A DNA stretch of 64,000 nucleotides, taken from the NCBI RefSeq assembly GCF_024713945.1, contig NC_134679.1, forward strand, positions 1,493,001-1,557,000. Direction: 5' to 3'. The translations under genes and the position numbers were made by a program. Position 1 is the stretch's first letter. Every line of letters starts with the position of its first letter. The notes beneath the pieces are model-generated. The model was not told the DNA's origin. It searched no databases and worked only from the letters and a program-made list of their open reading frames with translations. This document shows, piece by piece, positions 57,059 through 63,122 of this stretch. Source of the stretch: Dermatophagoides farinae. Its lineage: Eukaryota; Arthropoda; Arachnida; Sarcoptiformes; Pyroglyphidae.

Positions 57059-60000
57059 TTAAAGATTATTCAAGAATTTATTGGCAATACCACCGATTCC
57101 ACCGGCCATACCACCAATACCGCTTACACCACGTCCAAGACCGGATATTCGACCCATGACATTTGTTGTAGCATTTTGTATACGGCTAACATAATTTTCA
57201 GGATTTGTTCCAGATGATGATGAAATTGATGCAGATGTTTTTCTCGAACGATTACCCATTTGTTCACCATTAGCATGACATTCACTATTTATAATAATAA
57301 TAATAATAATAATAATGTATTAGTTTTTATGGAACAAAAAAGAAAAAAAATAAATCAAATTGAAAAGTTCAAACAACATACTCAGCATCTTCATTTTCAC
57401 GATTAAGATCATTTGTGGATACTGATGCTGTTGCCTCTTCCATTAATATTCGTTGCATGACCGTTTTATATGTAACATTATTCAATTTTTCTTCTTCAAT
57501 ACCTTGTAATTCAAAATCGCTATACATTTTCTGTATGTTGTAATTTAAGCCCAACGAAACAGAGAAACAAAAAAACGAAACCAGAAAATTTTTTTTTTCA
57601 TCAATAAGAATAATTAAATGGAAAAATCATGTTTACGAAAAAAAAACAACAACAACGGGTTACACACACACATACCCGAACAATGTGCGAAATGGCACAT
57701 AATTGAAAAATATGTAGACTACTATCGATACGTTCCAGAAGCCAATTGTTGATCAATTCAATCTGTGCTGCATACCATGACTACGTTTGATGAATTTGAT
57801 TGAATAGTTTTGAAAACAAAAACAAAAACAAAATAAATTAATTGATGATATATTAAAATCCATGACAACAATAAAATTCAAGTTGATAAAAATCGATCAA
57901 CAACAACAACAGATCAAATCGATTGATAGGTTTCTTTTATTACCTCAAAAAAACCAATTGCCCATAGTTCATCGCAAACTTTTTGTCGTAATTGTTCAGC
58001 AGAATTTCGTATGAAATTTATATAGGATTTTCCCACATCTTTACCAGTGCTCGATACACCTTTATTATACTGTGTGTGTGTGTGTGTGTTTGAAATGAAT
58101 GGGGAAAAAAAGTAAAGAAAAAATTTTTTGATGAGATTATTATGTATCGGAAAGTTTTTTTTCTATTCATCATCAATTGAACAGAAAAATGATATCCGTA
58201 ATAATTACCGTTAAGGACAGGATTGGCGCCAAAATGCTTCCCTCATCATAACGTGATAGTTTACTGATACAATTTTCCAATATTCCAATCAACTACAAAG
58301 ATTTTTTATTTTTTTTGGTCCGGTGTTTATTATTGGAAATAATAAAATAAAAATTATATATATTGTTGTCAATCATTTTCAATGTAAATAAATGAAAAAA
58401 AAACATTTACCTTGTTAGTAAGACAACTTTGCATCATATCCAATGTATTATCGACTAAATGATCAATTTTAGCATGATATTGATTCTATAAAATGGAAAT
58501 AAAAAAAAAAGAAATTGTGAATGTTCGAATATTTAAAAAATGGATGACATATGAATTGTCAATCATGAAAAAAAAAGAAAAGAAAAAGAATAAGAAAATT
58601 ACCGTATCATGTCCACTGAATGTACACAATTTAAGTGATTGATTTCTTGATTCCAATACAATATTGATCATTGTACACATTTCTGTTGGTATTATATAAT
58701 CAGTACTTGTTGTCCAACGATTTCCTTTTCTTTCCCATTGTTGAAATGCTTGCATTGTTTGATTTATTGAAGTTTCAATCATATCACAAGCCATCAATTT
58801 TAATCTTTGTTCCAGATGGCTAGCAAATACATCATCAGGCCAATAAAGATCGTGTATAAAATTTTGCAATGTATTCAATTTCCAGAATAGTTCCACCGAT
58901 GTTGCACATCCAGCTGGTCTGTGTGTTTTTTATGTGCAGAAACAAAAAAAAAACAAAACAAAACAAAAAAGAAAACCAATAAAGCAATATATCAAATGTG
59001 TGTTTGTTAATGTGATAAATATTATTATAAAAAAAACAACAAGAAAAATTTCTCATCAGAAATCAATTTTCATCATCGTAATTATTACCCTTTTAGATCC
59101 CATTTTTCTTTATCATAACCTTTCAATAATGCTTGTGCAATAGTATTTTCCATAAGATCAACATATCGTATTACTTGTGGTGCAAATGTATCTCGTAGAT
59201 GATTATGAAATCTACCTCCACATAGATTTTCTATATAGATTGAATTTTTTTTTTTTTTTGGCAAGAAAAAAAAATTGAGGCAGGTGATGACAAACAAACA
59301 TAATAGAATGAGAGATTAATAATTGTCAACATAAAGTTTCATGAATTTTTTTTTTTATTATTATTATTGCTTACCATCTAAACGAAGATAATTATTGAGT
59401 ACCTGAAACAATGGAAAACTTTCCCATGTGTCTGGTGGTTGCAACGATAATATTGTATCCATATCGACAGCAAATAATGTCCAAAATGTTTCACAATGTT
59501 CCACAAGTAATTCGGAAAACCAGGCAAACGCCTTTTTAGTGATGGTGGTGATGATGATGATGATTGTTGTAATCATCAAATAAACAAGGGAAAAAATATT
59601 TAAACAAAAATGAATAAATAGAAAAACAGAATTTGATTAGATTCTTTTGTTTTTTTTTTGCAATAAAAACAAAAAATAAAAGTACAAACAAAAGCCATTT
59701 TCAATTATAAGCTTGTTTACGATAATTGAAATGATTATTTTTCAGTTTTTTTCGTTTAGTTTTGTTTTCATACAATTTTTTTCCATTTAAATTTGATGAT
59801 TAAAATTTTCATTTTTTGTTTTTTTTTTCATCGAAATTTCCATTTTGATAATCAAAGAAGATGAATGGAATCAAATAAAGAGAAAGAGAGAGAGAGAGAG
59901 AGATGTTTAAAAAAAACTTACAGATGCTGCCTATATTACATTGTTCGAGAATCGGAAGACCAGTCATTCAGTTCGATATAATTTAATTATTTATTATTTA

Positions 60001-63000
60001 TCAAGACAAAGTTTGGCAGTTTTTTTTTTGTTTTGTTTTGTTTTGTTCGAATCGGTTTAGTTTGAGTTTGATGGAAAAGAATAATTTTTTGTTTTAGTTG
60101 TTTTTTTTTGGAAATTGTAAAAAAAATAAATTAGTCAAAAATGGAAAAGCATTCATTCAATGAAATGTGGAAAAGAAAAAAAGAAAGTAAAAAGAGAACA
60201 AAACAAAACGAAAAAAAAAATTCGAATGGATCAATTCATTATTCATCATCATCACCATTTTGATTATAATGATAGGAATTTGTTTTTGTTTTTCTTTGTT
60301 TGTGTATTGGTCATCATCATTGTCTTCTAAATGGGGATTTTGTCTGTGTGTGTGCGTGTGTGATTGAAATGTTCATCATGCTTATCTTTGTAGCATTCAA
60401 TTGAAATATAAAATAATGAACAATAAATCAAGACTCAAAGCGAAAAGAAATTAGAGAAAAAAAAAAATTTTGTGTGATCCAAAAATAATGAATCTCAAAA
60501 CTTGGACACACACAAAAAAGACAAAAGAAAAATTAAAGTAGATCGAATGACAATGATGTATATATTGAAGAAACAAACAAATAAAATGAATAATTAGCGT
60601 CTTAGAAATTCTTATTATATGATAGCACGGAAAATAATGAAAGAAAAAAAAAGAACATTTCTGGTCATTTGGGATCATCAATGAATCATCAGTTCTAGCA
60701 ATTTTTTTTGTTGCAATAAATCTTTGATTCTGAATCGAATGATTCCGAATGAAACAAATAAAAACCTAAACGAAAAATAAAAAAAAAATTCCGTCTGAAA
60801 ATGGATGGCAAATTTAAACAGAAAATTTTCTTTTAAATGTAACAGAATAAAAGTCCATAAATAAATCATTATCATTATGATGATGATGATGATGATGATG
60901 ATGATAATTTTATTTTTAGCCAGAATACAATGATAATTAGGAATATCCAATTTTCTTCGTCATTATCATTATGATTGCAGAATATGTGTCTATTACTATT
61001 CACTGTTTATATTACCATTATCATTAATCCAATCTTATATCCATCATGATGATCATTATTATCATCAAAATGATATTATTTCGTCATCATGTGTGAATTA
61101 TAATTTTTTTTCAGTTCGTTGTTTATTTCGTGACATATACATTAAAAAAAAATATGGAAAACTTACCTCAGCATAATGTTCATTATTCTCCTGTATTAGA
61201 TCCACACACATTTCGGCTAAATGTGTAAGCCGTTGTAATTTTGTTGAGCAATCTAATTCTGGATCCTGAGCTATTTCTATTCATACGATGATGATGATGA
61301 AAATTGTGATTGTGAAACAAAAAAAAAAAGTTTTTTGTTTTATCCGGTTGGAATACCCGGGTATTATTATCATTTGTTCGTTATAATCAATGTCGTTTTC
61401 GTTATTGTCCATGTTGAATTAAATTAAATGGATGAATTTCCATTTAAACACACGATGATAATGATGATGATGATAATGAAAACAATGAAGAATTGTTTGA
61501 ATAAAAGAGAAAAAAGAGAGAAAGAGAGAAGTGAATTAACTTGCTATTAATCCTGTTAAAATTGTTATGCATTGTTCCAAGAAATATTCATTTATTTATT
61601 CCATAAATATTGGAACAGAATATTTATGAAAAAGAATGGAAGATACACACACACTTAATATTTATTAATCAATAATGAACATCAATGATAGCAGTTCAAT
61701 ATACATACATACCTTCAATACGAGCCGATCTTGATATTTTACTATAATTTACATAAGCAGCACTTTCAAGGCACTTTTTGATGATACCACGCACCTCTTC
61801 TTGTGGTGCTGGCGTTAAATTATCTTTCATTAATACACGTTCCAATAATGATAATGTTGCCTTTAACGATCCTTCAGGACGGCCAAATGGAAAACAATAG
61901 CTATATGTAACATGGGACATAATTGAAAGCAAAAACAAACAAACAAACAATTTCATTATGAATTGAATGATAAGGATGATGATGATGATGATGTTTTTGT
62001 TTTTGTTCAAATCATATAGGAATAGGTAGAAAAAAAATGAATGGACGTGTGAAATTGTTTTATGGAAATGATACTAACCGAAAATTTGTTATTTGATATT
62101 CAAGCAAATTTTTCAGCCTATCCTTGATGATCATATACATATCTTTTTCTTCGATGGTTACCGTAAATATGCCTCCAGGTCTATAGGAAGATTTTTATTT
62201 TTTTGAGGAATCCAATGAACAAAAAGAAGAATAATGAGAATGTGTAGTAGTAACGTGTGAAATATACCTGATATCATAGGCTACCTGTCCCATTGGTGGA
62301 GCGCTTCTATAAATAAAATAAAAAATGACAAAATGAAAATTTTATCTGTGTGTTTATGTGTATGTGTTATTCAGAAATACATACATATTACCATGTACAT
62401 GTGATGAACAGAATGAAAAACTAAAATGTATCAATGTTGGATCAATTAGAATGCCTTTTTCAGCAAAATCCAACAAATCACTCATGTATGATAAATGACG
62501 AAAACAGCTTCGTACACCATAACGGGCACCATATTCATCAAGTACAAATACCTGTCCAGGTGAAAACCAGCCCATTGAACAATATTGACCATTTAATCGA
62601 TATGTTAGTGTTTCACGTTGTAATAAACTAAACAATTGATGATGATTAAATTTACATGGATCGGCTTGTATAAATTCATCCATTCCATGTTTTCGTGCAC
62701 GATCGGCATCTATTTTTTTTTTAAATAATGAAGAAATGAACAAAAAAAAAATAATTAAATCGTGAATAAAATGAACAAAAATAAATTAGAACCAGAAATA
62801 AAAAGAATCCAATTGAATATTTACAGAATTTATTCATGCAAATGAAAACACACATACGCATGAATGAATATATACAATAAATAAATAAAAGAAATAGTGT
62901 AATGATGATGATGATGATATAAATATTTACCTCCTTGAAGCCGTGAAATTGTTGAATTTTTATTCGATGTAGTGGGCATTAATGGTGTTGGTTTGTGCGC

Positions 63001-63122
63001 TTGACCAGTAGCTCTATACATGGCCATGACCCAAAGTGCACATTCATTTTCATCATCACAGGCAAATACAATACTATCGCCTTCTTTAACAGCATTGAAA
63101 AAATATTTACCTTCAGGAAGCT
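57059..63122 (-). CDS. Cadps: Calcium-dependent secretion activator CAPS/CADPS, C-terminal 780 aa (partial)
   Basis: Priming factor for dense-core vesicle exocytosis; binds PIP2, syntaxin and SNAREs. Exons in the window: 63122-62931, 62709-62385, 62306-62268, 62180-62079, 61900-61713, 61276-61167, probable microexon 59930-59922, 59531-59375, 59230-59089, 58918-58603, 58485-58411, 58292-58209, 58069-57944, 57780-57676, 57530-57382, 57284-57059. The first begins in mid-codon, so the 5' part (C2 and most of the PH domain) is beyond 64000. Visible: the end of the PH domain ([21 protein letters not shown]), [50 protein letters not shown], and the MUN-type region with [20 protein letters not shown] and [15 protein letters not shown]. 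It keeps MEEATASVS near the end, then carries an added Gly-rich tail not in the vertebrate proteins I know. Confidence 0.95.
59922..59930 (-). CDS. Cadps: Probable 9-nt microexon of CAPS
   Basis: GCAGCATCT is bounded by ATATAG and GTAAGT on the minus strand, inside the 1.6-kb intron between the exon ending NNEHYAE and the one starting AFAWFSEL. Both neighbours meet at phase 0, so inclusion adds Ala-Ala-Ser in frame and skipping also leaves the frame intact. From memory, vertebrate CADPS paralogues differ by a three-residue insertion at this same point (HHAE / AFAWW). Confidence 0.6.
59931..61166 (-). other. Long CAPS intron flanking the microexon
   Basis: 1.2 kb upstream of the microexon, with a further 390 bp downstream (59532-59921), much longer than most other CAPS introns. 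AT-rich, with GAGA runs at about 59881-59902 and (ATG)n near 60878-60904. No other exon seen. Confidence 0.7.

Follow-up and report, generated by a model that had tools for sequence, protein, structure and literature searches.

The CAPS protein prepares vesicles loaded with hormones or neuropeptides for their release. In mouse, the Cadps gene displays a 9-nt alternative microexon that encodes the tripeptide GLK (PMC12287369; this and the other papers are cited from excerpts). A Cadps microexon has been assayed by RT-PCR with primers that are published (PMC13067610). The excerpts dealing with mouse CAPS2 name exons 3, 11, 22 and 25 together with truncations, not all of which are placed on the protein, and these passages describe no 9-nt exon.

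A second 9-nt microexon is found in unc-13. It encodes VLK in C. elegans and is invariant in nematodes and Drosophila according to the excerpts of PMC12287369. It resembles the mite candidate described below in that it belongs to a MUN-family priming factor, adds three residues and acts as a neuronal switch in the worm (PMC12287369). Unlike the mite candidate, however, the unc-13 microexon is situated between the calmodulin site and the C1 domain and is thus outside of MUN.

The fly has neural exons that depend on the eMIC programme, and in non-vertebrate bilaterians the processing of the eMIC domain is reported to restrict this programme to neurons (PMC8797185). A comparison of fly and mouse found only four eMIC exons at the same position, i.e. 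in sponge, Endophilin B, unc-13 and unc-104, and convergence was favoured for these with the exception of Endophilin B (PMC8797185). The words Cadps and Caps are absent from the main text of that paper. In human, a class of exons has been described in which an AG-exclusion zone is combined with a branch point predicted to be distant (PMC1431707, in excerpt).

Here a 9-nt block within an intron of the CAPS gene of the mite Dermatophagoides farinae is analyzed. Judged from its sequence and surroundings, the block (positions 59922..59930) is quite probably a genuine cassette microexon.

The CAPS gene and its long intron

The window, i.e. the whole stretch of DNA that was analyzed, is 64,000 nucleotides in length and comes from the D. 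farinae assembly, which represents a 62.4-Mb genome in 22 contigs. The features are listed in Table 1. The joined coding stretch matches the CAPS1 fragment 6a68 (PDB) with an E-value of 1.2e-69 over query residues 10–178, and by this match the mite gene is assigned as the same gene as mouse Cadps. Both exons that flank the 9-nt block match the MUN domain (Pfam profile).

Table 1. Positions of the features discussed (window positions unless another contig is given).
Feature	Position	Strand	Remarks
CAPS/CADPS gene, part covered	57059..63122	-	PH-region (a label which we take to apply), MUN/DAMH and C-terminal exons; continues upstream
Upstream CAPS coding exon	61167..61276	-	5′ end at 61276 or 61270; ends ...ENNEHYAE; MUN 24.5 bits, profile positions 47–73
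Host intron	59532..61166	-	1,635 nt; divided by the putative microexon into 1,236 + 390 nt
AG-free zone ahead of microexon acceptor	59933..60293	-	361 AG-free nt; 363 nt when measured from AG to AG
CTAAT, candidate distant branch point	60130..60134	-	about 200 nt before the acceptor, T-rich run after it; presumed assignment
Microexon 3′ splice site AG	59931..59932	-	preceded by a sequence reading ...atatag
Putative microexon	59922..59930	-	GCAGCATCT; 9 nt, Ala-Ala-Ser, phase 0 on both sides
Microexon 5′ splice site GTAAGT	59916..59921	-	
CT repeat just downstream of microexon	59885..59902	-	possible splicing element or simple repeat
CTAAT, candidate branch point of downstream acceptor	59636..59640	-	about 105 nt before that acceptor; presumed assignment
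Downstream CAPS coding exon	59375..59531	-	begins AFAWFSELL; MUN 56 bits (translation extended 11 nt beyond the exon end), profile positions 77–135
SRRM-type gene, eMIC split over two exons	G000:C2:4911252-4911329 and about 4911660-4911791		downstream of a serine-rich stretch

Introns were modelled by GT-AG boundaries, reading frame and homology, without transcripts. There are 14 CAPS models in the window and 10 Unc13 models, two of which share a donor, and the splice-site comparison set consists of 24 modelled entries with 23 distinct donors. One of the 11 Unc13 junctions sought shows no GT donor, and from its sequence a GC donor is likely there. The host intron has a length of 1,635 nt, as compared with 78 to 436 nt (median 144) for the 13 remaining CAPS models. 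The first-pass annotation had placed the block alone in an unusually long intron. This description is borne out, since the host intron displays only one block of 3–51 nt with a length divisible by three (a 3n block), a donor of at least 4 bits and an AG-free approach of at least 60 nt.

The exon upstream of this intron is preceded by a tandem acceptor, atag-aaatag, at window positions 61270-61278 of the minus strand. Either AG is in frame (EEIAQDP or EAQDP), and a two-residue variation is possible. The window also encodes a group 2 allergen-like protein. Its best solved-structure matches are the house-dust mite allergens Der p 2 and Der f 2, which points to an astigmatan-type mite.

Sequence, frame and splice sites of the 9-nt block

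The junction order on the minus strand is 61167 GAG/GTAAGT ... AG/GCAGCATCT/GTAAGT ..., followed by position 59531, which begins GCGTTTGCC. The frame is kept with and without the block, as in neural cassette microexons; the skipped form reads HYAE-AFAW and the included form HYAE-AAS-AFAW. The block is also within the size range of such microexons (up to about 27–30 nt) and has canonical splice sites. The coordinates, strand, splice dinucleotides and phase given in the first-pass annotation are all confirmed, as is the position of AAS between HYAE and AFAWF. Its description of the splice sites as good applies only in part. The six intronic bases of the donor score among the best of the 24 modelled entries, but the donor is middling when the three exon bases are included (6.83, which exceeds 7 of the 24 entries). 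The score of the acceptor is low (2.79, with 4 of 24 lower).

The acceptor at 59931 might serve a different event. Read-through past the nine bases stops after seven codons and would give an alternative terminal exon, AASVSFF-stop, and there is an internal AG at 59928-59927 that would give a 5-nt exon and break the frame. C-terminally truncated isoforms of CAPS2 are indeed described in the mouse excerpts. However GTAAGT is located exactly nine bases past the AG, the intron downstream of the block contains neither AATAAA nor ATTAAA, and the MUN domain would be disrupted in either case. There is therefore a very remote chance that the acceptor belongs to an event of this type. Recursive splicing was considered by inspection and set aside, as no donor is regenerated by the bases past the AG and the intron is of modest length.

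The AG-free zone and the probability of a chance occurrence

An AG and a GTAAGT could come to lie nine bases apart by chance in an AT-rich intron and never be spliced. The motif AGN9GTAAGT is found once in the whole window, where 0.6 occurrences are expected, and at least one is present in 45 of 100 shuffles. Because 0.6 are expected per window, the bare motif is not significant by itself and does not constitute evidence. The weak acceptor, and the small pairwise gain from AAS described below, are also in keeping with a decoy. The host intron gives a different picture. When it was shuffled with dinucleotides preserved, an AG-9 nt-GT arrangement with an equally good donor appeared in 5 of 4,000 shuffles, and any 3n block of 27 nt or less with an equally good donor appeared in 23 of 4,000, the donor threshold being the value of the observed site itself. 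Such a 3n block together with an AG-free approach of at least 100 nt was found in 4 of 4,000 shuffles, and with an approach of at least 200 nt in none of the 4,000. The whole window has no other candidate of the microexon kind with an AG-free approach of at least 100 nt.

The AG-free approach is a more independent test than the donor-thresholded shuffles. It measures 363 nt at the microexon AG, which is the longest in the gene stretch. The approaches at the 14 modelled CAPS acceptors are 39–263 nt with a median of 131.5 (the value of 263 uses the first AG of the tandem near 61272; the second AG gives 6, and the median becomes 124). For the other 121 AGs of the CAPS stretch the median is 18 and the largest value 205, and the approaches at the 10 modelled Unc13 acceptors are 63–323 nt. 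Among the 1,877 AG gaps of the window's minus strand the gap of 363 ranks second, and over both strands only 3 of 3,981 gaps, that of the microexon included, are at least 363 nt. In shuffled introns 36 of 58,000 gaps reached this length, spread over 36 of 2,000 introns. Within the AG-free zone the only CTAAY sequence is the candidate branch point at 60130..60134.

A chance decoy is improbable in view of these values, of the agreement in place and length with the published mouse exon, as far as the excerpts describe it, and of the profile results below, where three residues are favoured here but not at eight other sites. It is highly likely, on the sequence features, that the block is a real exon.

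Fit of the three residues to the MUN domain

The Pfam MUN profile is matched by the upstream exon up to position 73 and by the downstream exon from position 77, which leaves three positions between them. Addition of AAS raises the score of the joined mite segment from 146.2 to 151.6 bits. When AAS was inserted at 8 other places the scores were 137.8–144.2 bits, all below that of the skipped form. A comparable rise, from 106.6 to 112.5 bits, is seen when GLK is added to the CAPS1 segment at the same place. The skipped join aligns with CAPS1 of PDB without a gap.

Pairwise alignment with Unc13 proteins is less specific for the mite tripeptide. AAS at the junction gains 1–2 points, but 7 of 44 and 11 of 44 other positions are equal or better. 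Of all possible tripeptides at the junction, 14%–22% score as well; thus the pairwise gain chiefly reflects length. When GLK is placed in the CAPS1 segment, none of the 44 other positions is as good in either comparison.

The corresponding stretch in the two mite Unc13-type genes reads PVLNQ and PILNQ, in both cases inside larger exons, although no more than 2 nt separate the PVLNQ stretch from the end of its exon. In Munc13-1 (PDB, protein sequence only) it reads PCLNQ. Alignment with Munc13-1 places the three residues 44–46 residues before the N1128/F1131 dyad, the mapping of which onto the Munc13-1 chain is by its N-x-x-F spacing. The dyad is reported, in excerpt, to be important in opening syntaxin (PMC13398699). 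The part of CAPS that holds the three residues is described as SNARE-binding in excerpts of two papers (PMC12702071, PMC6579465). According to a title cited within PMC12702071, priming by CAPS does not depend on its MUN domain, and this weakens the functional step proposed below.

Comparison with the mouse Cadps microexon

The mouse and mite exons are in orthologous genes, and both are 9 nt in length and encode three residues. Translation of the published Cadps primers gives LQQNEE(H) and FAVDMDA. On the CAPS1 chain of PDB these sequences bracket 22 residues in the MUN/DAMH part. The bracket covers the mite junction, which is three residues into it. Thus the two exons are equal in length and agree in position to within the 22-residue primer bracket; a search of the literature for the exact residue of the mouse GLK insertion gave, in the excerpts, nothing finer than this. 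GLK placed at the mite junction in CAPS1 lifts the MUN score, as does AAS in the mite segment. The residues themselves differ, and AAS does not resemble GLK. Neuron-type-specific use is shown for the mouse exon in the excerpts and would be a prediction for the mite exon.

A three-residue variation among vertebrate CADPS paralogues at exactly this place had been suggested when the block was first noticed. The mouse Cadps alternative exon of 9 nt, with a primer bracket that holds the junction, supports a vertebrate variation of this size; what the excerpts describe is alternative splicing within Cadps. A literature search for a 9 bp alternative exon of CADPS gave no match. The word microexon is absent among the listed matches from the mite literature, which is no proof of its absence from print.

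If the mite exon is real, then it very likely has the same place as the mouse exon, as judged from the bracket and the profile. Common descent of the two is possible but falls somewhat short of an even chance. A mite exon that equals the mouse exon in length and shares its position, or nearly so, provides a concrete case for the question of retention as opposed to repeated re-invention. It may be that these three residues are an old component of the MUN fold which became optional in CAPS, and that the 9-nt switch predates the split between arthropods and vertebrates; this is rather unlikely. A segment of that kind would be represented by VLN, ILN or CLN in Unc13-type proteins, GLK in mouse Cadps and AAS in the mite, with conservation of length and not of letters. 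Searches of prokaryote-genome and viral contig collections, by single-sequence and two-sequence-alignment queries, showed no CAPS relative, a result that says little.

Possible control by the eMIC programme

The mite genome encodes an eMIC domain. The SRRM_C score is 36.6 bits for one exon and 55.8 bits for two exons joined manually. Several features of the mite CAPS exon are shared with the eMIC exons of Drosophila as described in excerpts of PMC8797185, i.e. a weak acceptor, a long AG-free zone, a strong upstream donor, and CTAAY branch-like sites both upstream and before the next acceptor. Other features are not shared. The fly exons have UGC near the acceptor and UCUC upstream, but the mite exon has no UGC within the 87 nt upstream of it (the nearest is at 88 nt) and its UCUC run is downstream. 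In addition, the fly exons have short introns and a weak donor, whereas the mite introns are 1,236 and 390 nt in length and the intronic donor bases are a strong GTAAGT. With features partly shared and partly not, eMIC control of the mite CAPS microexon is possible.

RBFOX and MBL sites are not present close to the microexon; GCATG is absent within 450 nt and GCTTGC is absent from the intron. This differs from the mouse event, which is called a direct RBFOX target (PMC13067610, in excerpt). A TAAGTT sequence, which is EXC-7-like, overlaps the microexon 5′ splice site; it is hence uninformative and was rejected as a separate signal. The CT run downstream of the microexon is not claimed as a specific element, there being three other such runs in the window. 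Knockdown of the fly PTB orthologue gave no sign of repression of eMIC exons in the excerpts of PMC8797185.

Optional use and proposed function

If real, the exon could be constitutive, with CAPS being simply three residues longer in the mite. The strong intronic bases of the donor are consistent with this. So is the history of the VLK sequence, which is optional in the worm, present in the fly, and reads on from the upstream exon in mite Unc13; the contiguous arrangement there indicates that optional exons may become fixed in the mite lineage. The weak acceptor, the far candidate branch point and the 9-nt size however favour optional use, the skipped form matches CAPS1 gap-free, and the mouse exon is alternative. 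Constitutive inclusion has accordingly only a small chance of being correct. We infer splicing, alternative use and a neural bias, as well as the helper factors and the functional effect described below, and it is probable that the block is used alternatively.

The preferred reading of a cassette microexon is based on the sequence, the frame, the AG-free zone, the profile fit and the eMIC-encoding gene, with the mouse exon and its primers taken from papers. The mite exon would then likely be a new instance of an established type of neuronal splicing switch, located in the dense-core vesicle priming machinery. The spliceosome would join 61167 to 59531 either directly or by way of the 9 nt. Because of its small size, which does not allow exon definition, its weak acceptor and its probably distant branch point, the exon is expected to have a poor intrinsic inclusion. 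It would then be skipped by default and require helpers, most plausibly neural factors of the eMIC/SRRM, PRP40 or ELAV type. On inclusion, the three residues would make this part of MUN/DAMH as long as its counterpart in the Unc13-type MUN domain. In this way they would probably tune the handling of SNAREs and the priming of dense-core vesicles by cell type. A length switch at this MUN site could thus set the strength of priming in different cell types.

Observations on the mite Unc13 genes

In mite Unc13 the VLK codons (G000:C6:1504312-1504332) are contiguous with the upstream exon and read GAATTG-GTTTTAAAG/GTATGT. They lie between the CaM-like region and C1, which is presumably the place of the separate 9-nt exon in nematodes and flies. 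The VLK switch looks to be fused in the mite, unless a weak alternative 5′ splice site, GTTTTA, is what is left of it.

This gene also has two consecutive and similar exons of 107 and 101 nt in the same phase (G000:C6:1505428-1505534 and 1506290-1506390). Their translations read DVFGVDQ...AKIAIT and DVFAVEP...AKITIT, respectively, and by sequence they have the appearance of mutually exclusive exons. An apparent GC donor (GCATGT) is seen at the second of them. In the second Unc13-type MUN gene (G000:C2:6188821-6190569) the PILNQFPQEL stretch is found within one long open frame.
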